Part shown: positions 16,195 to 38,340 of the stretch, one piece after another
How positions within the stretch are numbered: position 1 is the first letter of the stretch
How the letters are laid out: every line of letters begins with the position of its first letter
NCBI GenBank assembly: GCA_001910725.1
Contig: MJGA01000004.1
Span: 124,001-188,000 of the forward strand
DNA from: Phanerodontia chrysosporium
Lineage: Eukaryota; Basidiomycota; Agaricomycetes; Polyporales; Phanerochaetaceae
Direction: 5' to 3'
DNA: 64,000 nt
Notes under the pieces: generated by a model
The model's database searches: none
Told to the model about the DNA's origin: nothing
What the model saw: only the letters and a program-made list of their open reading frames with translations
Made by a program: the position numbers and the translations under genes

Positions 16195-18173
16195 CTAGGA
16201 CCAGCAGTACTCATGAGCGCCCGTGAGTAGATCCTCACGAGACGGAGCCACGCACCACGCAAAGCCGACATTGTATTCCCCGCTAGGGGTAATCTCCCGG
16301 CCTTGTGCGTCCTTCGCCTTGTCGATACGGAAGACCGCGAGCATGCACGCGACGGCGATCCAGATCGCGTCGTACGCCATGTACCGCCCGGGGCAGATGC
16401 GACGCCCGAAGCCGAACGCCGCGTCGGGCTCGCGCACACGCCCGTCGAGCGCGTCGCCGGCCATGAAGCGGTCGGGGTGGAAGCGCAGGGGGTCCGGGTA
16501 CGCAGCCTCGTCGTGCAGGATCGCCCACGAGTTCGCGAGCACGAGGGAGCCCTTCGGGATGAAGTACCCGCGGTAAACGTCGTCCGCGATCGAGCAGTGC
16601 GCAACGTCTGCGCAACACTGAGTACGAGCGGCGAAACTTTAGGGAGGGGGCTCACCAATCGGCAGCACTGGATTCCAGCGCAGCGCCTCCTTCACGATGG
16701 CGTCGATGTACGGAAGCTCGGGTTGGTCGTCAAACGTCGGCAGGCGTCCTGGACAAACGCGGTCGAGGTCTGCGTGTGCGCGAGCTTGGATTGCAGGGTC
16801 GAGCACGGTGCCTAGAATGAATGATCCGAGTGCGGAGACGGTCTGCGTATGCGGTCAATTTTGCGAGATTAAGAGCAGAGAACAATGAAAGCGAACCGTG
16901 TCCGAGCCGCCTAGCATCAGCAGCAGGTGTGAGAACAGACGTTGAGACATCACACGGGACACTTACCCGCATACATCGACCCTAGTGCATACTTGATGTC
17001 GTCCTCAGTGTATCCTGCGGTGTCTTCGCCCGATTCGAGACTCTCAAGCAGCGACTTCGCAGCGCAATCCGGCGCATCGCCCCTCAGCTAAGCAGGGAAT
17101 GAAAACGGTTCGTAATATGCGCATTGAACAGGGACGCACTATACGCTCCTTCACAACCGAGAACGGCTTGTCGCGCAGCTCGGTTACATACCTGCGCCAC
17201 ACCTTGGCGTCCTGCTTGAACTTTGCACCAGGAACCCACTCCGGGATGTGCTTCACTGTGTCTCGCGTGAGCAGCGAAACGCCGAAGAAAGAGATGTCCT
17301 CGCGTACAGAACGGCATGATGTTCACCAAGTATGATCCCGGGCTGCACGTCGCGACGACGGCACCGACAGCATGCTCTGCAGTGTCGACGTATGGGTCTT
17401 CGCGGCCGGTGACTTCGATGCCGTACGCGATGCGCAGGATCTCAAATGCTGACATGCTTGCGTCTCGAGGTCAGTGCAGCCCATGTACTAGGGCATGCGA
17501 CATACTGGCGGAGGTGCCCCATGAACTCGGCCGGCTCTCGCAGGAGGTTGCGCAGAAGCTGGTGCGTGGCGTGCTCTTCCAACGCGCGGAAGCGCTTCAC
17601 AACCTGCGGGCCCAGCTCGTGTTGGAAAACGCGCCGTCCGTTGCGCCAGGTGTCGTCGTACCGCCTGAAGGCGACGTTCCAGCCAAATCCACACCTACAG
17701 AGACTTGTTAAGGGATGGGCATGGACATGCTGGAAGGTGCCTCACAGGTCGTTTAACATCGGCATCTCGGGCCTGTGAGCGAGTCAGTTCTGCGCGCATT
17801 GAACAGTCCAACGGGGACTAACCTATCAGAGTATATTGCAGACCGTTTGTCCAATAGGTCATTCGCGGCGTCCAAGGAGTTGACGATGATGATGTTGCTT
17901 CCAAGCACGTTCAGTCGCAGAATATCCGAGTCTGACCAAGAGTCAACCTTGCTATCAAACCCCGATAAGACAACGATACGCACTGTACTTCTCGCTCCAG
18001 CGAATGTATGTCATCCACGACGGATTATCCGGCATATCGAGCAAGTTTCCGAGCAGTGGGAGTCCAGGCGGACCAGGTGGGTGCGGGCTTCTCTCCTGTC
18101 GACGTCGTGCAGCCCACCGCATCAAGAGGATGATAATCAGGCCAGCAAGGCCCTGTAGCACTGCAGAGACCAT
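16195..18173 (-). CDS. Cytochrome P450 monooxygenase
   Basis: Ten exons joined exactly: 18173-17984, 17931-17823, 17772-17746, 17694-17506, 17456-17308, 17255-17140, 17087-16967, 16910-16897, 16842-16656 and 16607-16195. They give 504 residues, normal for the family. Exon 8 is only 14 nt. The N-terminal membrane anchor (VLQGLAGLIIILLMRW) is followed by the Pro-rich hinge PHPPGPPGLPLLGN. Landmarks: SDILRLNVLG, the oxygen-binding motif AGGSDT, the ExxR motif (KEALRW), the PERF-like FHPDRF and the haem-Cys motif FGFGRRICPGRYMA. The sequence resembles the large basidiomycete OrdA-like clan (CYP5144/CYP5359-type), microsomal enzymes oxidising xenobiotic or secondary metabolites. The exact family and substrate cannot be assigned by eye. 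Confidence 0.93.
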
Positions 18174-24485: not shown

Positions 24486-26905
24486 AGCCCGCCGTGCGCG
24501 ACCCATGCGCCCGGCGCGCATCGCCTCTCGCGCCCCTCACACACATATTATTTATTCCTCCGACGCTGCTCACGATCGGCAATAGACCAAGGCTAGGACC
24601 CACGAACGCACACCGTTTATTCCTATATAATCAGACACTATACCTACACCGTACCGTCAATCGGCCGACACGCCCTATGGAAGAACAAGTAGTAATCGAC
24701 CCGGCCCGCATGCCCTTATTGTTATTGACATCCCCCACGACGTACGCCCACGCTCTACGCTGCCGCCCTCGTATTAGTTTCTGCGCTACCCGCCCCCCAA
24801 TCTGTTTCTGCTGTACCATGCTTTGCACCCCCTGCTTCGCCGCTCTGCGCCATTCTCGACTTTGCGCATGCTCGCCTGCTCCACAGGCGCAGACGGCCGA
24901 CCTCTCCCCCCGCGTCTCCTGGAGGATCTCGTTTCTCGTTGGTTTTTCATGCTTATACAAGTTAGTAGTAGTACCACGCCGTCCAATATCAGTGCTGTTA
25001 GGGAAACATCGTGTGGTGCTCCGTTGACTGGTGCACACGCCTCATCCTGTCATAACTTACGTGCATTGAGAGGCATGCTGATCGGTGACATGCCGTCCGA
25101 GAGCGGCGGCACGTTCCGCGCCACAACGGCGAAGCGCACACCGGGCGGGGGCTGTGCCACTCGCGTAGCACTGGCATCTCTCTCCCGAGATGGATGATAT
25201 CCCTGCACCCTTCCCCGCGCGTACGAGCACTACTGTTTTCTTTTCTTCCTGTGCGGGTTCTCGAGCTTTCTGTGCACATGACCTGGCAGATGCGTCGCTG
25301 CCGCTGCGCTATGTCGGAAATCCTGAGCGCGCCCACGGGTAACCAGAAACCTTAATTCACGGGGCAGACCAACCGCCAGTTGTCCGCCTCGTGGTTTCCG
25401 GGGTCTTGCTCCTAAGCAGTTTCTGTTTGCGCACCATACACACGTCTGGGATGCTTGACAATGCCTGGAACCTAATGTGATGGATGTATAGATGTACTTG
25501 AATGCATAAAATTGGCCATATTATCATCGTGGTGGTTTGTAAAGCAGAATGTCCTGAAACTGCAGGGCGCTTGCGTATTATTGCATGACGTTTGCTTACA
25601 TACAACCTTTCGCTGTTTTGTTTGCGTGTTCAAGCTCGCACGTCGAACGCTTATGGCCACCCGTATGTTGGCGAGCACGATCTCCCTCATCTCTCGACAC
25701 ACTTGACCTTCAAGCTTCAAGCCTAGTCAATAGAATGGGTGCGTGTATTCTGAGATTGACCGGAACGAACCTATCCAAGTTGAGTTTCAGATTGCAGCTC
25801 CTGCCGCCTACAGTCTCTGTGGTCAACTTGCGTGCGGCAATGGTTGCATGTGCTCGAGGACGAGGACTCCATCAGCTGGTGCCGCCTTTGAGAGGGTGCG
25901 AGTGGAAGAGCAAGACTGCCGGGCTGGAGCTGGATTGACAGGGTGCGTCATGGTCTCTCGAGTCTAAAGCATGCCGTCTGAGTCTTCTCGCAGGATATTC
26001 AAACGTGTACAGCTGTCCAGAACTACTCTACCATCCGTACGTGCAATCCTCCATTACATGCCCATGCGCCCGCACTCTCGAGAGTCGAGAGCGGGGTTGC
26101 GCTGACCTAGGCAGCGGCAGGTGTCCGAGTTGGTGCTCAGTACTGTGTCACTGCTGGGACACCCGAAAGCATGGAGCAGGCTTTGCGCCGGTTGCACTGA
26201 AGACGAAGATCGCGGGTGCCGGGGGATTCCCAGAGCCAATCGTCTGTGGGGAAGAGGCGACCATCAGCATGCCACCGCCGTCATGCCTGCGAGGAGCTGG
26301 ACTGCTCTGTGAGTCTATGATCAGCATGTGTGAACTGACGGGTTGTGCAGGGCACATTCTTGAGCATGATGTTGAAGCGAACAGGCTTCTGCCTGCCATC
26401 ATGTTCCCGCAGACCACGCTGGCATGCTATCACACTGACAATACAGCCACAACCGCCACCGTTGCTCACCATAAGATGCAACACTTGCGCTCTGCGACTT
26501 CCCCTGCAGGGACTTTTGGATTTGATGTGTATGCTTTAATTCATTTAGATTTCGTAGGTTGCTGATTGCACAGCCTATAAAACACATGTACCTATGACCT
26601 CTCCACTCATGAAATAAAGTCTCATCTACCCCTGGCTCGTCACGTTCGCGCTTTCGCACTTGCCAGTGCTCTTGCATTGTCCCGCAACCCCTCGGGACCT
26701 CGTGCATACCTTCGGAAGGCCCTCACTGGCTGTACTACTCAAAGCACATCTGGCTTCACAGACCTACCGCCGCACAATCGTTGCCCGATGCTTTCTTTGA
26801 GGGATGTCATTGGTGGTCGGGGAGAAGGGTCTTCGGGGTCTTGGACGGGCGTTTCTGTGAGGGTCAGCCCCGCGAATTAAGGTTCCTGGTTACCCGTGAG
26901 CGCGC
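24486..26905. other. No supported gene
   Basis: 3' flank of the preceding gene followed by about 2 kb without a convincing reading frame. A TATAAAA box at about 26576 has no protein-like frame downstream. Small Cys-containing frames at 25743-25967 and 26005-26565 (plus) cannot be extended across good splice sites and have no recognised family. Confidence 0.4.
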
Positions 26906-27077
26906 CTCACGAGGTGCTGACCCCGAGCCGGCATCGGCCGTGCCTCGTGAGATCCTCACGAGGCGCTCATGAGATCCTCACGAGGCGCTCATGAGATATC
27001 GTGACGCTTGGCCTTGTCTCGCGCGTCTATCGTGAGTCGATAAGATTACCCACGAGCCCTCGTGAGATACTCATGAG
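26906..27077. repeat. Left subterminal repeat cluster (CTCRYGAG x8)
   Basis: Exact copies start at 26906, 26944, 26955, 26966, 26977, 26988, 27059 and 27070. Five are spaced exactly 11 bp apart (26944 to 26988), close to one helical turn, so they would face the same side of the DNA. Neighbouring copies form a palindrome CCTCGTGAG-ATC-CTCACGAGG. Confidence 0.8.
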
Positions 27078-27320
27078 AATGCCTGCCCAAGGCGGGGCGA
27101 GTGCGCGGGTTGTTCTTCTCAACCCTGGTTCGTATCTCCTTTGCTCGCTTTCCCCCCAACTGCAAACCCACCTCTTGCCGTGTGCGGCCTCAACGAGCCC
27201 GAGTCTTGTTTCTGTGAGTCAGATATGGCGGGCTTGACCTTTGTCAGATCTCAATCTGGATGCCGTGCACTTACATGGTTCCGCGGCCAGATACGCTACC
27301 ACACATTCCCCCGCTGTCAG

Positions 27321-30300
27321 ATGCCGCGAAGGCGATCGCACCGGAGTCAGCCTAAGCAATGCCCGACATGCAATGGCTGGTTCGCTGAAGGGGGATTCGT
27401 TTCGCATACCACTAGCTGCGCGCGGATCCATGAGGAGGAGGCTCGAGATCGCCGAGCATTAGAAGAGTTGACACAAAGAAGGAGGAATAGTGCGTACCCT
27501 TACAATCTCACAAGGCAAGTCAGCTGATGTATATCCACAGAGCGGCGAAAACAAACACATGCCGTGGACAACGACGACATTGCTATGTCTGAAGCAGCCG
27601 CCGCTGGCTCTTCTATTAGAGGTGAGTCTTTATAACGGTAGACCACAACCTGTGTGCTGATACTGCAGCTCCCCCATAGCTACCGAAGATGACGGTGTCT
27701 TCATTGCACCTGCGCCGTCGACTGCCGCGCCGTCTCCTCCCGCGACACCCTCGGAGCTGCTTACGGAGGACTATACGCTGCCGAGGCAACCTCCCTCTGT
27801 AACGCCGCCTCTGCATGCCTTATCTCCACAAGCGCCTTCCTCTCATGCGCCGTCCCCGTGCTCGCTCCCGCCCAGACCATCTTCACCAAGACCGTCCCCG
27901 CAACCAGCACCTACCACAGAACATCGAGGGGCATCGCCGCCACCACATTGCAGCCCTACACCCCCCGAGCAGCTCACTGCTGGCGCTGACGATGATGAGG
28001 AGGGCGATGTCACAGAGGCGCCACGGCAACTTGACGATATCAAAGTCGAGTACCACCCTTTGAGTGGTCGTGGAACTAAGATCTATCGCTTCACCCACTT
28101 CAAGTGCGAACAACCTTTGCATGTACCCCTGCCCGAGGACTTCGAGGAGTCCCACGCGCCTTTCGAGTCCCTAGATGACTTCAAGTTTGCGGAGATCGCG
28201 CTTCATGCAGGCCTGAAGGAGGCGCAGGTCAATACACTCCTGAATATCATTGCAAAGGTGCGGGCAGGCGAGTCAGCTTTCTCGCTAAGGGATTACAACC
28301 ACATGAACTCGAATTGGGAAAGAGCTGCAGTGTTTCACCCACCGGTATGACAGTTGTATCTATACTGTGACACTGCAGCTTATAATTGATGTATTAGTTT
28401 GAGAAGCATACCTTTACAGAGTCATATCGTGGAACCGATATGTCTTTTGATGTTCATGTGCGAAATCTCTGGCAATGGATTGAGTCGGTCGTCGGAGAGC
28501 CACGCCTTGGCCCATATTTTCAATGGGACGCCATGCGTATGTCCAAGTGGAATGGTGCAGAATGACAGTCGTATTGGGAGGATCCCATCACTGGCACCAG
28601 TATGTGGGATGCTCAGGTACGTGTGAGGTGTGGTTACATATTGTAGCAGTTCTCTAATGTATAAAGCTAGAGTGCCCTCAAGGATGATCCAGAGGCTAAA
28701 CCTTTGGGCATCATATTATTTGCGGACAAGTCGAAGATCTCCAGCTTCGGAACTCAAGAAGGGTACCCAGTCATGGCTCGCATCTCGAATCTGGACAGCT
28801 CAGTTCGTAACGGCCGTGGCTTTGGTGGTGGCTGCGTGGTTGGCTTTTTACCCTTGGTATGTGTGAGGCAATTTTACTCCGATCACATCATAATTGACAT
28901 GAATCCAAACAGATGAAGGATACTTCTGCGCAGCGAAAAATCAAGGAGTGGGTGGACTTCAAGAAGGTGATATGGCACAAGAGTTTTGAGAAGGTCCTGG
29001 AGAGCATTGCTGAGCTGTCCAAAGTGGGCTTCCCTGTCATGTGTGGTGATGGGCTGCGACGGGTACTTTATCCATTCATCAACATTCTATCTGCTGACTA
29101 TGAGGAGCAGTATGTATTTTGCTATCTTATCATCTTTATTCTAGCTTTGACATTGTTTTTGTAGGTGTGTAATGTCCTTGATCCATGGATTTCGGGGGAA
29201 ATGCCCTTGCCCTGTTTGTCTCATTCCACAGGAACAGCTTGGTAACATTCGGGCAACTCCATTTTATGAACAGCGCACAACCAAGCATACCTCTGAGTTG
29301 CTTGGTCGAGTATATGCCACTAAAACCCTGAAGGAGAAGGCCCTGGCTAGTGAGGGACTACGTCCTGTTGTGGTAAGAAACATGTCTTGTCTCTTGCTAA
29401 TGATATCTGGCTTAAGTGTTGTCAGAATGTTTTTTGGCTATTAGGAAATACCTGCATCTACAAGGCGCTATCATTCGATCGCCTTCATGCATACCACATT
29501 GGTCTATTTGGCCACCACCTATGGGATCGGTTTAAAGCCATCTGCAATGGTCCTGGCTTCACGCGAGCAGACCGCACTTTGATCGATCAAGGGTGAGTGA
29601 TTGATGCCAAGTTTAAGATGGTTATATTTACAGATCGGCTCTGTTTCAGAGCTGATATGATGCCTCCATGGCCAAATCTCAATCATTACCATGGTATACT
29701 ATTGGTTGACTTCACCGATGGCACTAAATATCAGGATATATCAAAGGTGAAGCCTCAGAATGCTTTGTTACAAATTTACTAAATATTCTCTTAGACTCTA
29801 GTCTTTGCTGCCTGCAATGTTCTGACAGAGAACAAGTCTGAAGCAGGATACTCGCTCTTACGGGCTATTCGCAAGTACATCGAGTGCGACATGTATATGG
29901 GCTTTGAGGTGCATACTGAAGAAACCCTACAAGCACTAGACAAGTGCATTGAGGAATTTGGTGATTTGATCATGGTACGATACTTATCAGGCTTTATTTC
30001 TACATAGCTAATGCCACATTTGAAGGAGCATGAAGAACTTTATGAGCTTGTTCGTCCAGCGAAAATTGCCAAGAAAAGCTGGAATTTCCCCAAGATGCAC
30101 ACACATACACATGCTACGCAGGACATTCGAGCCAAGGGTGCTATACAACATATGAGTACTAGGCTCTGGGAATGTCTACACGGACCTATACGTGACTGGG
30201 CAAGAAATCGCACTAATAATAAACAAATATTTGACCAGGTATGCAGCCTCTGATATTAATATTATTCAAGCTCACATCGTAACAGATTACAAAAATTGAC

Positions 30301-31079
30301 CACCAGTTTTTATGTTGCAAGGCTATTCGGGCAAGAGTCGATGAACATTTGGCCTCTCAGCAAGAGGAGAAACAATCAGCCTCTAGAAAGCTGTACCAGT
30401 TCGGACCAGTGTACCTTGGTTCACGATCTCCCATGACCACCTTTGCAAAGGTGGAGGCTGATCATGTTGATGATCTTGCATTCAGAAACTTCCGGCAGAA
30501 AGTGGTGACTATTATCTATCAGTTACGCACTCGGAAGAATATCCCTGGTATGACAGGACGCCCAGTGTTGGAGCCATCAGATAAAATGGTAAGTGCTCAA
30601 GTTAACTGGTATGCTTGTGTATTAATATTCCAACTGGTTAGGTCACGGAGTGCAATCTTCTGGAGGTGGATTATGAGTCGCTCATCACATGGCGCCTTAA
30701 CACAGACTTACTACGCTGCAACCCATCGTGGCACGGGTCATCACGCTATGACAGCATTCTCTTTCATGACCACCAAGACACACTCACCTACGCCAAGCTG
30801 ATTTTTACCTTCGTGGTCACTCTCAGCAGCGAGGAGCGATATCCCCTTCTACTGGTGCAACCAATGCATTACGTAGTGCGTCGGCAAAGTGACCTTGACC
30901 TGGGCCTGTACCCAGTCAAGCAAGTCCCTCGCAGCCAGTGCCGACTCATCCCTGCACAATCACTCAAGCGTGGAACTATTCTGTACCCAGATACTGCTCG
31001 TGCAGGTCATCATTTTGTAGTGGATGTAACTGACTCAGACGCTTTTGTACGGACTCGAGAATTATTCCAGGATTTCTAG
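27321..31079 (+). CDS. Plavaka-type transposase with one in-frame stop
   Basis: Thirteen exons: 27321-27489, 27541-27621, 27680-28344, 28398-28616, 28671-28856, 28913-29109, 29165-29372, 29426-29592, 29650-29746, 29795-29974, 30026-30238, 30286-30588 and 30642-31079. Every phase fits, and the total is 1041 codons. The N-terminus has a zinc finger (CPTC at residues 14-17, then H28, C32), then a Pro-rich acidic linker. The family signature follows: VEYHPLSGRGTKIYRF, FAEIALHAGLKEAQVNTLL, WDAMRMSKWNG, PLGIILFADKSKISSFGTQ, RNGRGFGGGCVVGFLPL, LSADYEEQCVMSLIHGFRGK with CPCPVC, ALSFDRLHAYHIGLFGHHLW and KSWNFPKMHTHTH. These match Plavaka proteins of agaricomycete DNA transposons. Codon 361 is TGA (28563-28565) between NGAE and QSYWEDP, where Trp or another aromatic is expected. 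There are no frameshifts anywhere else. Confidence 0.88.
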
Positions 31080-31554
31080 AATGTGTCTATCCTGTAGTCG
31101 AACAGTATTCTAATTTGTTATACAATGATACAACCTACAGTGTGCTCTGAGTGGGAACGGCTCCGTGATGAAGAATGCCTTTGTGGCGCTGATGGAGTGA
31201 TGGGAGTGACAGCAGGCGCACAGAAAGTCCAACTTCTCAACCGTACACGCACCCTTTCCGTAACAACAGAGATGCAAGTGCTCCCAGCTACGGCTACACG
31301 AATCCGTCCGTTCGTGGCTCTGTGCCCCACGGTTTTATGCCTTAACGTAAGCCCTTAATTCATATCAAATTTGAGCGCACCGGCCACCGTCTACTTATCA
31401 GTGTATGTAGAGCCCAACCTCCTTCCCTAGCAATGTACGTGATACACTGACCTGAATAGATGGTATCAATCGTTGTAGGGGCTACATGACAACTGCAAGA
31501 CGAGCCAGATAGAGCGGGAAATGTGCTGCTACCTGGACTGTCAACGGTGAGCTA

Positions 31555-32185
31555 TTCCTGAGCCTGAGCCTGAGCAGGACTACTCATCCTCTCAGCGTAT
31601 GCTTTGATGACGGGGCCTAGCCTACCGCAGAGTAAGGTGTCCTTCATGCCAGACAAAGCCGAGCTCAATGGCGCAGTGCCTCTCCCACAGCCTTGAAATC
31701 CTCTACAGGCCGCCTCCACCAACATTCGCACATCAAGCATGGTGGTTATCACGCAGCGAATAGAGGGCCCTCGCACAGGGTCTACAACATTGCGGGCAGC
31801 CCACGGTTGCTGTCTATTACATATATCAAGGCACGCGGCGCCGGCGCAACGTTCGTCTGAACGACAAGCACGCCTCGGCGAGCACCGCCTGGTTTGCAAT
31901 CCGCACGAATCCGCACGAGCTCTACGGCCTCATACGCGTCACACCGCACGGCGATGCTGCTCGGCGGCGGCCGCTCGTCTGTGCCCAGCACCCACGCCCA
32001 GGACCCGCACCCGCACATCGTCAGCCTGCCTTGCGCCCCGCGGAATGCGCTCCCCTCGCACTCACCGCTGCCGTTGTCCTACACGGCGTAGTGCTGCAGT
32101 TCGCCCGCGCTATGCATCACGCCCTTGTGCGCGATGTACAGGTTCTGCAACCGCGCCTCTCGAGCGCCTTCACCGTCTGCGAGAA
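31555..32185 (-). pseudogene. Possible decayed coding fragment inside the transposon
   Basis: On the minus strand, about 32180-32085 reads ARLQNLYIAHKGVMHSAGEL followed by QHYAV and a stop. About 31745-31555 reads MLDVRMLVEAACRGFQ and then, in the same frame, PLSSALSGMKDTLLCGRLGP with a short tail. Both pieces look protein-like, but they are in different frames and separated by non-coding-looking DNA. No family is recognised. This could be a captured host-gene fragment. It is weakly supported. Confidence 0.2.
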
Positions 32186-32741
32186 CCCTGACAATGCCAC
32201 GCCAGCAGGTCAGCGACAACAAAGCAATGCAAGGGGCCCAAGCTCAAACTCATAAAAGGTATGTTGTGTTTTCGTAGGACGGCGCGGTGCGTACAGCATC
32301 CGGGCATTTGTACAAGAGATCTACACTGTGCTTACTTTCGAATCCTAGAACCCGCCCCTTCCATCCTCTCTGCGTCCTAGCGAGGGATCCATTGCTCAAC
32401 TCGGCCCATCCCCACTTCGAGAGAGACGAGCGTCGACAAGGACGGCACGGTCTTGCAGCGGCGGGGGCCATTGCAGGCTGCGCGTAGCGACTTTGCAGTG
32501 AGAGCCTGGGACTTGTAGGCCTGACAACCCAAGATACGCCCAGCGAAGGAAGGGGAAGGGAGACGAGGCGAGGCAATGGGGTCGGGGCGAGAAGAGATGA
32601 GATGACAGGAGGAGAGCCGAGGCGGGCGAGGCGAGGCGATGTGGGGGCGTGCAGGGGATGGATGATGCTAGGGGATGAGAGGCGAGGAAGGAGGGGAAGG
32701 AAGAAGAGCCGCCACCGGCGAGGCCCTCGCACAGGTATGCC

Positions 32742-32888
32742 CGTAGGGCTGGTTGGCCCAGCGGGTTGCCGTTGCAAGTCCCCCTTGGTTGCTCGACGGC
32801 ACCCTCGTAGGGCTGGTTGGCCCAGCGGGTTGCCTGCAACTCCCCTTGGTTGCTCGACGGCACCCTCGTAGGGCTGGTTGGCCCAGCG
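32742..32888. repeat. Tandem repeat, about 61-64 bp unit, 2.4 copies
   Basis: Units beginning CGTAGGGCTGGTTGGCCCAG start at 32742, 32806 and 32867. The first two units continue as GGGTTGC..TTGGTTGCTCGACGGCACCCT. A purine-rich GA tract lies immediately upstream (about 32540-32710). It sits between the transposase and the dioxygenase genes of the mobile element. Confidence 0.85.
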
Positions 32889-33125
32889 AGGAATGCCACG
32901 CGCGTCGAAGGGCGCTGGGTGAGTGAAGCTGGAGGCTGGCTGGCTGGAGGCAGCGGCGGCTGATAAACTGTGCAGCACCACAGTGTGTGGCTTGTCACGA
33001 AAGCCTTTGTCACGAAACGCGTGACCTCGCGCGACTGCGTCGCGCCCACCGTAAGACTCTGAGCTTAGTTTTCACATTAATAATCAACTAATTGCGCCTT
33101 CGCATAGCAAGCAAAGTATCTGGAA

Positions 33126-34827
33126 ATGGTATTGGGGCACCCGGTAAGTACTTGCAGTAGCTCTCTCAATACTTCACTGTTGGGCTTACAAGTCATTTCG
33201 TATGATTATAGACCTCGATCACCGTCCCACCCCCAGGGCCAGCAGACCCCAACCAAGTTGCGCTTCTTCTCGACGATTGCAGCATTGAAGATGGCGTGAA
33301 ATCAGCGATTGAAGAGCGCGACAGGCGCGACGCTGCCGGGCTCGGCGATGTCGAACCTGGCCAACACCTTCAATACACGCGCTCGTCGACGTGTCATCGG
33401 GCATCCTCCCCCAGTCCATCCTCCCGCTTGCCTTCGCTACCCCTTTCTCTGCTGACTTCGCCATGTCCGTCTCCACCGTCGAGCCCCTCCCTGCGCCACA
33501 GCCGCCTCTTCCTGCCCAAGGCTTCTCGCGAGCCGTGGAACGAGAAATCACAAGAAACGCGGCAAGGCTCTGCGCTCAGCAAAGAAAAGGCAATCAATTC
33601 GACCTAGTACATACAAGATACGCTCATCGTTGTCCAAGACATACAAGAGCCCTCTACAGGTTCATCTAGACACCTTTCGCATGCTCATGATCAAGACCGT
33701 CGCCGCTGGTGCCTACATCACGCGACGTATCGCAGCAGGTGCGGGAATTCCAACGCTGCAGGAGGTTCTCGCTGAAGGACTTCGCCTTGTGAGATGGGAC
33801 GGGCGGTGAGTGCTGTTTTCTGCTGTCAGCTCCATGTTAAACTCACCCCATGCGCCATGAAGCACTACGACCGTGATCCTCGACCGCATGCGGCGGATTA
33901 TCGCTGTGCTTGGCGGCTTTCCCGGTGATCCAGCTCGGTGGGCGCAGTGCAGGAAGGAGGCTGGAGAGGTCATGGCGCAGGTGAAGGAGGAGCTGGATTT
34001 TAGACAGGGAGACCGTCGAGGATCGTTCCGCACTGTCGCGGTGGGAACGTCATATGGCGGTGGGCAGAGGGTGCGTGCTTTTCTGGTGTTACGTCTTCAC
34101 TCCTGATCCAGCCCGTCTCCAGCGCCCCGGCATCCTGCGCCATTCTGCACGTAATGCCGCAGCATGCGCAAAGCTCATTGCTAGCCAGGCCATCAATCGA
34201 ATCGCCGGCTTTGGGAGCAGTAAGTCTCTTGTGTTGTCCTCTGCGCCAACGGGCTAACAACGAAAGCAGGCTTGTTTCGCATTTTATGCCCCCAAGATGT
34301 ATCGCGACTATGCTACCAAGCTAGACAAGCTCTATGACCATTACCCGGACCTCGACTACCTCTGGAACGCTTCCGTTTTCCCCTGTGCGTCTTTCAACTT
34401 CGGCCCCAATGCCCTGTGTGTTGAGCACAACGACCACGGCAATCGGGCGGCCGGCTGGTGCTCGATCTTCTGTGACGGCACATTTGACCCCACTCATGGT
34501 GGGCATCTCATCTTACGGCAGCTCGGCATCGTCGTCGAGTTTCCCCCTGGCTCCACCGTCCTCATTCCTTCAGCATGCATCACCCACGGCAACACTGCCA
34601 TCGGCAAAGGCGAGACCCGCTGGTCATTTACGCAATACGCGTCCGGTGGTCTGTTTCGTTTCGTAGAATACGGCTTCCGCACCTGGCGTGAGGTTGAACT
34701 AGGGGACACCGCGTTCGCAGACGAGCTTCGTGCGCAACGCGAGACGCGATGGGCTTCGGAGCTGGCTCTTCTCTCTCAGGTTGACAAGGTTGCGGCAGAT
34801 CGAGAGGCGGCTGAACTCTTGTCTTAA
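33126..34827 (+). CDS. TET/JBP-like 2-oxoglutarate/Fe(II) dioxygenase of the transposon, frame breaks
   Basis: Exons 33126-33143 (tentative), 33212-33805, 33863-34070, 34123-34219 and 34270-34827. The N-terminal part is low-complexity and basic (KKRGKALRSAKKRQSIRPS). Conserved landmarks follow: MLMIKTVAAGAYITRRIAAG, IPTLQEVLAEGLRLVRWDGR, VILDRMRRIIAVLGGFPGDP, RRGSFRTVAVGTSYGGGQ, RPGILRHSARN, NRIAGFGS, FAFYAPKMYRDYA. The core double-stranded beta-helix contains FNFGPNALCVEHNDHGNRAA, with the Fe-binding HxD (HND), then GWCSIFCDGTFDPTHGGHL, EFPPGSTVLIPSACITHGNT with the distal His, and GETRWSFTQYASGGLFRFVE with the Arg for 2-oxoglutarate. These proteins oxidise 5-methylcytosine or thymine. Two one-base frame breaks are seen, near 33547 and in the T run at 34275-34277. 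The start is uncertain. Confidence 0.75.
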
Positions 34828-35213
34828 ATTGTACTTTGTACCCTCAATACTGTGATTTATTAGATCATGCAATTGACCTCAAAGCAACCGCGTGCATGCT
34901 GCGTGCACTCAGAAACGCGCATTACACCAGCGCCTACGCGGTGATCCTGAACGAGTTGTCCGCATCTGGTAGTGCACGACGTCTACCTCCTGCTTCACGA
35001 CATTCCACCATGTCCCCCTATGCTCTTGGCCAAGTGCACTCACACCGAACCCGACCGCGTTAAGGTTGGTAGCGCTGCGCACATCTGAGGCCAAATAGAG
35101 CTAATCAATTCAGGTATGAGGCTGTGAAGCAGGCAGTTATAAACCGCGCAGGAAAAATTTCCTCAAGCCTCAACTCGCGCCCTCGAGTCCTGCCCACCCT
35201 TATTCAACTTGCT

Positions 35214-37262
35214 ATGCCGCGCCGCGCTCCTCTCCCGCCTGCGAGCGACTCAGACTCTTCCTCTGACTTCACGGAAAATGAGTCCAGCTCGGATGCCGAG
35301 CAAGGGGACGCAGCTCAGCATGTCGCTGACCCGGACATTCGCGCTGCTTTACAGGATTCTGTAGAGGAAGAGCCAAGCTCTCTTGCAAGTGCAGATGATC
35401 TACGGAAGGTAAGTTTCTTTGTTTCACTATACCATGGTGCGTCACTCATTAACCATGCACCCAGGCCCTGCGCGCTTCGCAACTGCGCAATGTGCAGATC
35501 AGGACATTGCTTCAGAGGTTGAACAACGAGAACGAGAAGTTCAAGTTCTCGCAGAGCAAGAAACGATTGCGCGACGGTGGTGAATGCCCGTCGACAGATC
35601 TGACGGAGTACGACCGAGCCATCAAGCGCGCCGGCCAGAAGTCGATCGTCCTCTTCGACTTGTGGCCATCGAAGGACATCTTCACAGCCAAGAGGCGGCC
35701 CGACGTCAATCTGATGTCCCCAGCCAGTTCGCCAGTCCTAAGGCGGAGAAAAAGGCAAAGCAAGCAGAGGTTTTCGACGCGCTGCCTGACCTCACGAGCC
35801 TGAGAACAAGCTGCTGAAGCAGGCAATGGGTAGGGTGTCATGGATAGGTAGCCGTGTGAGTAATTTTCCCTCTCCGCAATGTCGTCCTACTGATTGCCTT
35901 GCAGTACTATGCTTGTGCGAACACTGTTCGGTCTCACTTGATCTCCAACGTGAAGGCAACGCTCTATCTCTGCCTGCCCGAGGATTACCGGCATCTCGCC
36001 TCCATTCCTACTGACAAGCTGAAGGATAACTCGGACGCCATGCGCCTTCGAGGACTCGACGAGGATGCGTATCCACCGTTCTTGTACCCTGTCGGCTGCC
36101 ACCGAGTCAACGACCTGATATTCCGTGGGCCTATGCTCATACGGGTATGTACCATTGCTTTCTCATGCTTTCCTACCCTCATAGATATTTTCTGTAGATC
36201 GTCAAGGCGTGCGTCTGCGGTAAATCGTTCCCTGGCACATCGACTGGAGACACCTTGTCGGGGAACACGACAAACGCTGACCTCTGGTCAATTCGAGGCC
36301 AGATAACTCCCGGAATGATGGCAATGTCCTTCGTAATGGTACGTGTGTACAGCTCTTCTTATGCCTGCCTGCTCTCATGCCCCCAGGCAAGATTCGTGCT
36401 TTCTGGCAACCCGGCATTCAAGGAGGAAATGTACAGTCCGCAGTACTACTTATGGCGGGACAAGCTCATCAGAGCCTGGGGACAGTCTGATATGCAAGCA
36501 ACTCGGGAGTGGTGGAGCGCTGCGCTCTGGGGCCGACACGACCCTACTGTCCCAGAGCTTGATCGTACGGCTGCTTCATCCCATCTTACTGCTATCCAGC
36601 GCGAGCAAGCGGAGCTTGACGCTCTGTTTTTCAGCGGCGGCTCCGCCCCTCAGAGCCGTAGCACGCTCATCTCCTCCCCTGTTACTACCCCCTGCTGTCC
36701 CGCAACATCGCCCTGCTCGTCATCCGCAGGCGGTCTTTCCGGCACTCCCTCGTCGACCGAGCCTCCTCTCGTCCCCGAGAGGCCTGTCTCTTCTCGCAAT
36801 CCCGTTCCAGCACTGGCGAGCGCTCAGCCAGTCCCTGCTCCATCCTCTACCAGCTCTCGCGTGCTCGGCTCAACGACCATGGCGGCGCCGTTCCCAATCC
36901 CTGAACCCCCCGACGAATCGGAGCTCACAGAGCTCAACGCTACCGTGCAGTCCCTGGGGATCGGCCATCCGGGGGCTGTTTCGAACTACACGGAGCCTGT
37001 CGCAAGTGGCAACGGAGCATCTCGTGGGTGCACCCCTGCCTCCGAGTCGCCGACGACGACGACAAGTGCGAATGCTCACGCAGCACGTGCGTCTCGTAAC
37101 GCAACCCCCAGCATGGGTCAGAACGACGCCGGCCAAACCGACGCCGTCCAAACCGACACCGGCCGCGCAACTCGCTCGAAGAAGAAGCATGCTGTCCAGC
37201 CCGAAGAGGGAGTTGAGCAGGCTACAGCTGCTTCTAAGAAGAAGTCTCGAAAGCGCTCTTAG
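35214..37262 (+). CDS. DUF6698-type protein of the transposon, two frame breaks
   Basis: Exons 35214-35408, 35465-35855, 35905-36144, 36198-36338 and 36387-37262. An acidic Ser/Asp-rich N-terminus is followed by a coiled-coil-like stretch (RTLLQRLNNENEKFKFSQSK), then IVLFDLWPSKDIFTAKRRPD, AEKKAKQAEVFDALPDL, YYACANTVRSHLISNVKATL, YPPFLYPVGCHRVNDLIFRG, LIRIVKACVCGKSF and LWSIRGQITPGMMAMSFVMA, the DUF6698 pattern as I recall it. The C-terminal third is Ser/Pro-rich and ends in a basic nuclear-localisation-like tail (ASKKKSRKRS). Exon 2 carries two apparent one-base deletions (about 35711-35714 and about 35801) between RRPDVN, DVPSQFASPK and NKLLKQAMGRVSWIGS. The molecular function is unknown. 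Linkage to the transposase and the dioxygenase suggests an accessory role in mobility. Confidence 0.7.
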
Positions 37263-37367
37263 TATACTGCACGCACACTTTTTTTCTGTCTACGCTTTCC
37301 AATAAATATCACGCTCCCTGCACTGCTGCTGGCCTGCTTGTATGCCTCGCGCGCACATCACGGTGAG

Positions 37368-37968
37368 CTCGTGAGGCCTCACGAGGTTCTGACGATGCTA
37401 CTTGAGGATATGAGCGACAATATAGATATGGACCTTTGCCGTACCTGTTTTGTTACCGCACGTTGAAATAGGAGCTCTTAGTTCGAATCCCAGTAGTAAA
37501 TAAAATTAAATAATCATAGTAGCAATAGTAAACAGTAGTAAGTAGTTAGATTAGTAGGATCAGTAAAAAGTAGTAAGTACAAGTCAATAGTCGAGGTAGT
37601 ACAGTAAGTCGCATTAATAAATATGTACTTGAGAATCGGTAAGTGGAGTAAGCGTGAGTCTGAATGGTAAGTAAAGTGAGTAAGTAACGTAACAAACCAA
37701 TGTAAGTGCTAGTAGTAAGAAAGTCCACAAGCGTCTATTATTTTTTCCTCCGCCCAAAGTCCCATCACGATGCCTCGCGACAGCCCGTGGGACATCACGG
37801 AACCTCGTGAGGCCTCCTGATCTGACTTCCCTCTTGAGTAATCATGAGATAATGCCGCCTACTCAGGAGATAATCATCCAGATCACGAGACCTCCTGATC
37901 AGCTCGCGAGGACTTGGCTTTCCTCATGAGGTCTCTTGATCCAGCGCTTCGCCTCAAGCCCTCGTGAG
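37368..37968. repeat. Right subterminal repeat region
   Basis: Exact CTCRYGAG copies start at 37368, 37378, 37804, 37903, 37923 and 37961, with degenerate copies between (CTCTTGAG about 37831, ATCATGAG about 37841). Between 37490 and 37735 lies an AT-rich stretch built from many irregular copies of AGTAAGT/GTAGTAAG. Confidence 0.7.
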
Positions 37969-38340
37969 GCCACATGGGGCAACGTGACGCAGCGCTAAGA
38001 TTTCCGACATAGAGCGGCGAGGCGGCGAGGCGGCGACAGGGCGTGGGTTGCGTGCGCTTCTGCGCTAGGGTCCTAAGGGGGCCCAGGAGGCCCAGGCCTC
38101 CCGCGCGAGCGCGAGCACAACCGGAGGTGGTGCAGACGCGCAGGTGCTGCCAGACGCACCGGGTGCGCGCAGACAGAGGGCGGCGGGCGCTTCGAGAAGA
38201 GGCTCGAAAGAAACGCTGGGTGGCGCGGATGCGAAGCGCAGATCGGCGAGATGTGCGATTGCGGGGGAAGGGGGAGGAAAGAGAGAGGCCCGCGCGTGTG
38301 GTCTAGGCCCTGTGTACGTACGTGTTCGCCCCGCGGACGT

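Follow-up and report, generated by a model that had tools for sequence, protein, structure and literature searches.

A Plavaka DNA transposon of Phanerodontia chrysosporium carrying TET/JBP-type dioxygenase and DUF6698 protein genes

Associations of Plavaka DNA transposons with TET genes were reportedly noted by Iyer et al. in 2014 in Serpula, Fomitopsis, Trametes and others. Here, we examine an element from Phanerodontia chrysosporium in which a Plavaka transposase gene is accompanied by genes for a TET/JBP-type dioxygenase and a DUF6698 protein. It lies in a 64,000-nucleotide stretch (positions 124001–188000 of contig C80, hereafter the window) of a 39.0-Mb genome in 145 contigs. The closest described system is PlavakaB of Agaricus bisporus and Gymnopus confluens, which likewise combines a Plavaka transposase and a TET/JBP dioxygenase in one transposon (Kojima 2025, PMC12730594). 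In that account, all TET-carrying Plavaka elements found are PlavakaB from two Agaricales species, Polyporales contribute only TET-carrying Kyakuja, and A. bisporus is the exception among the fungi of Iyer et al. in yielding a TET-carrying Plavaka. The associations of Iyer et al. (2014), compared here via Kojima's description only, are probably the same kind of pairing, with Polyporales among the hosts. The pairing itself is therefore already known (Kojima 2025; Iyer et al. 2014 as cited there).

The differences lie in the details. PlavakaB elements terminate in CATCA..TGATG, encode a PE-type (HxE) enzyme and are found in Agaricales, whereas the C80 element terminates in TGT..ACA, encodes an HxD enzyme and has a host in Polyporales; the PlavakaB descriptions in Kojima 2025, as far as they go, do not mention DUF6698. 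TET-carrying Kyakuja/Zisupton (KDZ) transposons and CcTET share the TET fold and the setting of fungal DNA transposons, but the KDZ systems combine a transposase of the KDZ type with duplications of 7 or 8 bp, compared with a Plavaka transposase and a 2-bp duplication here. Their AG-type pocket, shared by CcTET, contains Gly331 (Gly or Ser) and Asp337, in contrast to Asn and Cys at the same sequence offsets in our element. The Arabidopsis VANDAL/VANC system (PMC5735166, PMC10398659) also combines transposon-borne anti-silencing with non-coding repeats and an extra protein; VANDAL, however, is an unrelated transposon, and motif binding and methylation loss are demonstrated for VANC, whereas comparable activities of the C80 element are putative. 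For fungal transposons, TET gene function is described as being without experimental validation (Kojima 2025, PMC12730594). Our literature search, covering few subscription journals, returned no paper on DUF6698 and no other title describing such an element; as far as it goes, the combination of PlavakaA ends with an HxD enzyme having a TET2-like pocket, the stable DUF6698 partner and the transposition of the whole unit are new. We consider it probable that the element is a PlavakaA-type transposon whose stable cargo consists of a DUF6698 protein and a TET/JBP 5-methylcytosine (5mC) dioxygenase, and that the enzyme would serve in anti-silencing.

Structure and mobility of the three-gene element

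The C80 element is a cut-and-paste transposon of the PlavakaA type, present in the window as a damaged copy with two cargo genes. It occupies 25312..38009 on the + strand of the window, or 12,698 bp with a nested insertion included (about 11.1 kb without it; sister elements, 10.9–11.7 kb). A repeat search of the window yields a 21-nt inverted pair at 25302–25322/37999–38019, which, when trimmed to TGTCGGAAATC..GATTTCCGACA, leaves TGT..ACA ends with TA on either flank as the 2-bp target-site duplication (25310..25311 on the left, 38010..38011 on the right). The matched ends define terminal inverted repeats TGTCGGAAATCCTGAGCGC (25312..25330, + strand) and TGTCGGAAATCTTAGCGCT (37991..38009, read on the - strand). 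The limits of 26906..37968 given in the initial annotation turn out to be those of the outer subterminal repeats only.

All three genes lie on the + strand inside 10 kb, as had been read from the sequence initially, and Pfam matches, motifs and spliced models confirm their assignments; the dioxygenase and DUF6698 genes fall inside the terminal repeats and their target-site duplication. The transposase gene (27321..31079) gives a 1,040-residue model of 13 exons by spliced alignment, from which a custom script also derived all gene states. In the window copy, damage amounts to one in-frame stop in the transposase gene, one frame break in the dioxygenase gene and two in the DUF6698 gene. Among the sister copies, the transposase has one in-frame stop in C57 and two in C61, while its poorly conserved N-terminal part contains one frame break each in C91 and C56 and two in C124. 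The C57 protein matches Pfam Plavaka (PF18759) with 154.5 bits (E 5.3e-45, cut-off 26.3) and, at E 0.5, no other Pfam family, KDZ included. The transposase N-terminus is zinc-knuckle-like, and candidate catalytic and CMCT motifs are discernible by eye (FADKSK, CGDG, CPCPVC, an H-rich stretch and WECLHGP); Plavaka is placed in the CMCT clade and not in KDZ (Kojima 2025, PMC12730594). The Plavaka domain and the 2-bp duplication rule out a KDZ/Kyakuja identity, and the initial mention of KDZ-type transposons is not applicable here.

Searched exon by exon, the genome contains at least 76 matches to the transposase, 36 to the dioxygenase and 18 to the DUF6698 query. All three genes occur in identical order and orientation at six loci, namely the window copy (C80) and five other places (C91, C57, C61, C56 and C124), and all 18 listed DUF6698-query matches fall within these. 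Ends of the form TGTCRGAA..TTCYGACA are present at 6/6 loci, and the CATCA..TGATG termini of PlavakaB at the ends of none. Perfect 2-bp duplications flank four of them (TA in C80, CA in C57, TC in C61 and CG in C56), for which the probability by chance of at least 4/6 is 2e-4. The assignment to PlavakaA rests on these TGT..ACA termini (6/6) and 2-bp duplications (4/6, including the window copy).

The C56 and C124 elements are 99.7% identical over 11,204 alignment columns. Their alignment runs from 7 bp before the left end to the right end, and the flanks beyond it are unrelated, from which we conclude that the whole three-gene unit has moved (C124 itself being without a duplication). The C56 insertion interrupts a reading frame with relatives on both sides; when its flanks are joined with one copy of the duplication, the frame is open again, and the relative on the left spans the joint gap-free (89 nt, 69%). 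The initial proposal of a single transposon whose three genes stay together is thus upheld by co-occurrence, ends and duplication.

This association persists across family-level divergence, which offers a possible functional context for DUF6698. Between C91 and C57, protein identities are 82, 80 and 53% for transposase, dioxygenase and DUF6698 protein, respectively, and the three pairwise DUF6698 identities (53, 34 and 35%) are consistent with the transposase and dioxygenase trees. C124, a near-copy of C56, is excluded from the trees and from motif counts. In the transposase tree (10 rows), the five three-gene families stand opposite four TET-less Plavaka and C63 with 99/99 support, C63 and C13 being long branches. 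The inner order of the dioxygenase tree, ((C80,C91),C57) and (C61,C56), matches that of the transposase; this tree has 47 rows (8 own copies and 39 of the 120 listed among 238 matches; C72 and C2 excluded), and Phanerochaete sordida P0001 and P0003 and the metagenomic P0002 fall within the (C61,C56) group. Because synonymous divergence is saturated in most pairs, we report the ratio of nonsynonymous to synonymous differences per site (pN/pS), with codons containing stops or X dropped. The nearest pair, C80/C91, gives 0.10 in the core of the transposase; the dioxygenase, compared in two parts, gives 0.16 and 0.11, and DUF6698, over the two parts that were comparable, 0.37 and 0.33. Maxima in the other pairs, where pS is near saturation, are 0.42, 0.40 and 0.66, respectively. 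The DUF6698 protein sequence changes faster than that of the dioxygenase.

The dioxygenase and the DUF6698 protein

The dioxygenase gene (33212..34827, + strand) was modelled by spliced alignment, with core exons at 33585–33805, 33863–34070, 34123–34219 and about 34267–34827 and its frame break at the junction of exons 3 and 4. An N-terminal exon at about 33212–33570 was placed by eye from its resemblance to the start of P0001. The window copy retains the motifs HND, distal THGN and GETR. For P0001, a close relative from P. sordida, we find a TET-type double-stranded beta-helix fold with CcTET as the best structural match, which bears out the TET/JBP-type assignment made at the outset. P. sordida also supplies the closest named relatives (56–60% identity to the C91 query). 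Among 75 aligned relatives, drawn from 120 matches listed of 238, the HxD...H iron ligands and the 2-oxoglutarate Arg are conserved in 75, 74, 74 and 74, and active-site residues are almost invariant. HxD occurs in 74/75 relatives, with HxN in one, and in the own copies modelled, so the HxE of the PE type is not seen. The equivalents of the AG-type Gly331 and Asp337 (H+5 and H+11, located by counting residues from the iron His) are Asn in 75/75 and Cys in 73/75, unlike the AG type. By the same offsets, the pocket residues are similar to those of conventional TETs, with a TET2-like Asn. In TET2, exchange of this Asn for Gly is reported to affect activity on 6mA (CcTet paper, PMC11040006).

The dioxygenase core is without stops or frame breaks in C91, C57, C61, C56, C124, C63, C69 and a distant copy at C80:967–968k. 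The C63 copy (C63:50001–70000) accompanies a divergent Plavaka transposase, for which element ends were looked for and not found; DUF6698 was not detected there, and an adjacent frame, judged by eye, is presumably Prp8-like. In C69:114001–124000, the core belongs to the same family, and a Plavaka transposase was not found within that 10 kb. First exons that end short are seen in C127, C100 and C32. Directly after the truncated exon of C127 lie frames that look by eye like Copia pol, which suggests interruption by a retrotransposon.

The DUF6698 gene (35214..37262, + strand; spliced alignment) encodes a protein with an acidic N-terminus, a coiled-coil-like stretch (by eye), the DUF6698 domain and a long, basic-ended tail with 7–13 K/R among the last 40 residues in all six copies. 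The assignment rests on spliced proteins: PF20414 matches 3/3 sister proteins with 40.1–47.3 bits (E 4.3e-10 to 2.6e-12, cut-off 23.7) over profile positions 71–205 of 206. C91, C57 and C61 retain an open core; C56 and C124 each have one doubtful frame break, where the gene model is possibly wrong. A homologue search with this protein returned none at E 0.001. A four-row profile, which scored only the 7,998 candidates with the most common words, gave one weak match, P0121 (E 2e-3), which has no Pfam match at E 0.01 and aligned too poorly with the window exons to be used. Nothing was found in the PDB by sequence, and a single-sequence structure model was discarded (mean pLDDT 40.4). Canonical DUF6698 loci with identical scores lie outside the three-gene elements at C2:310604–311392 and C124:1028604–1029392, with further ones on C77, C125, C59 and C102.

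Host methylation, subterminal repeats and possible functions

The host has seven above-cut-off matches to the DNA_methylase family at no fewer than five genomic places. The C56/C124 pair differs by 20 substitutions (22 mismatches by BLAST over a slightly longer range), of which 18 are transitions and 14 CpG transitions, where CpG sites and those one transition removed from CpG make up a share of 0.28 (P about 1e-4); these substitutions are as would be expected from deamination of methylated CpG. In the TET-less Plavaka pair C1/C81, CpG transitions account for 10/17 at a site share of 0.27, and both pairs are thus CpG-biased. CpG observed/expected is 0.90–0.93 in the six elements; flanks are at 1.03–1.15 in 5/6 and 0.92 in the sixth.

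The probable anti-silencing role draws on the ends and unit structure, the near-identical sister pair, pN far below pS, the TET fold, the host methyltransferase-family genes and the CpG-biased decay. The dioxygenase would oxidise 5mC on element DNA and so keep or regain transposase expression against silencing by host CpG methylation, a role likewise proposed for TET-carrying transposons generally (Kojima 2025, PMC12730594). The DUF6698 protein is plausibly a nuclear adaptor; that it would tie the dioxygenase either to the transposase or to the DNA of the element is a guess. Near-identical TET-carrying copies at two sites coexist in this genome with several older TET-carrying families whose enzyme cores are intact and with TET-less Plavaka that resemble them at the 5' end, so that methylation, expression and excision could be compared among natural variants.

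Several observations weigh against this account. C91 and C124 have no matching target-site duplication. C1/C81, whose 5' end is similar, are 99.6% identical at two unrelated sites, which indicates that the cargo is unnecessary for movement. CpG protection by the dioxygenase is unseen, with 14/20 CpG transitions in the TET-carrying pair and 10/17 in the TET-less one (Fisher p 0.51; two pairs, both Plavaka). The own dioxygenase copies score 11–19.9 bits against Pfam Tet_JBP (PF12851; cut-off 34.9), and relatives P0047 and P0088 reach 28.3 (E 1.2e-6) and 25.1 bits (E 1.2e-5). P0001 has no Pfam match at E 0.01, and the family profile retrieves no TET, and nothing credible, from the PDB by sequence. 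Lastly, an exon-by-exon genome search with Pfam DUF6698 gives 16 matches, none at the six three-gene loci.

A first alternative is that the enzyme leaves behind a durable modified base (5-hydroxymethylcytosine or further modified) that shields or marks element DNA instead of erasing methylation. Distant TET/JBP relatives, CMD1 and JBP, produce such bases (PMC12730594), and CpG decay is no lower in the TET-carrying pair; however, a second modifying enzyme is not recognised among the three genes, and the pocket residues are like those of conventional TETs. We regard this alternative as unlikely, if worth keeping in view.

Other alternatives turn on the CTCRYGAG repeats, which bracket the genes as first described, with 8 copies on the left (26906..27077) and 6 on the right (37368..37968) by motif count. 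The window contains 23, compared with 7.95 +/- 2.62 in shuffles, none of which reaches 23. Pooled over five families, with the nested insert in C80 skipped, the terminal 700 bp contain 43 CTCRYGAG and 9 other CTCNNGAG, and the 43.9-kb interior contains 3 CTCRYGAG. The words are CTCATGAG (15), CTCGTGAG (10), CTCACGAG (9) and CTCGCGAG (9). At their centres, TpG is as frequent as CpG, and any pyrimidine there is either T or the C of a CpG. An origin of the RY degeneracy purely by CpG decay of the CTCGCGAG palindrome is rejected: position 4 is A in 24/43 and position 5 is T in 25/43, while only 2 words have C to T at position 3 and only 3 have G to A at position 6 (Fisher p about 1e-7, a rough value because the word groups overlap by construction). 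The right subterminal region also holds AT-rich AGTAAGTA-type repeats (37440–37700), which in the ends of the five families pooled number 9 versus 0 in the interior. Far from the element, a lone CTCATGAG and CTCACGAG lie within 32 bp at 16210–16241, perhaps a solo end fragment.

The equivalence of TpG and CpG suggests binding that is independent of unmethylated C. The pattern would fit a reader accepting T and 5mC, or a methyl-blind one, and does not point to binding that requires demethylation; the likely reader would be the transposase and not the dioxygenase. A bolder model, which we hold to be speculative, is a targeted anti-silencing machine in which DUF6698 or the zinc knuckle reads CTCRYGAG through 5-methyl-pyrimidine contacts (T/5mC) and recruits the TET enzyme, VANC-like but with its own eraser; the enzyme would then be a fourth type of transposon-borne TET, with HxD and a TET2-like Asn. 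Somewhat more doubtful is the initial suggestion that the dioxygenase treats the CTCACGAG/CTCGTGAG repeats, removing or oxidising their 5mC so that the transposase binds and cuts. The concentration of the motif in the terminal 700 bp and the CpG in 3/4 RY words speak for it, but the balance of TpG and CpG tells against it, as do the unequal left/right counts across copies (C80 8/6, C91 6/1, C57 2/5, C61 2/6, C56 1/6, C124 1/6). In C13, moreover, a TET-less Plavaka has CTCATGAG and CTCACGAG directly inside its TGTCAGAAAAATC left end, so the motif is not restricted to dioxygenase carriers. The suggestion is further weakened by the TET-less C1/C81 pair, which starts with TGTCGGAAAATC and has no CTCRYGAG in its shared 4,565 bp (its 3' end was looked for and not found).

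It is quite improbable that anti-silencing or regulation falls to DUF6698, with the dioxygenase a passenger common to mobile elements. TET genes have been described as passing passively from one transposon to another (Kojima 2025, PMC12730594), and the dioxygenases in C63 and C69 occur without detected DUF6698 and transposase, respectively, but the dioxygenase protein evolves more slowly than DUF6698, with almost no variation at its active-site residues. That the cargo genes are ordinary host genes that chance to adjoin a transposase, as the C69 core might hint, is rejected on the strength of the near-identical C56/C124 units at unrelated sites, the position of both genes inside the terminal repeats and a gene order kept in five families.

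The nested insertion

The left end of the C80 element contains a nested 1,565-bp transposon (25334..26898), which is separate from the three-gene unit. It has 44-nt inverted arms, given by the repeat search, with the terminal inverted repeat CACGGGTAACC read by eye, and is flanked by an 8-bp duplication, AGCGCGCC, at 25326–25333 and 26899–26906. Its ends match those of a 6.4-kb element at C33:118052–124489, which has its own 8-bp duplication, GGTGGGAT, and contains a 745-residue stop-to-stop frame with no Pfam match at E 0.01.
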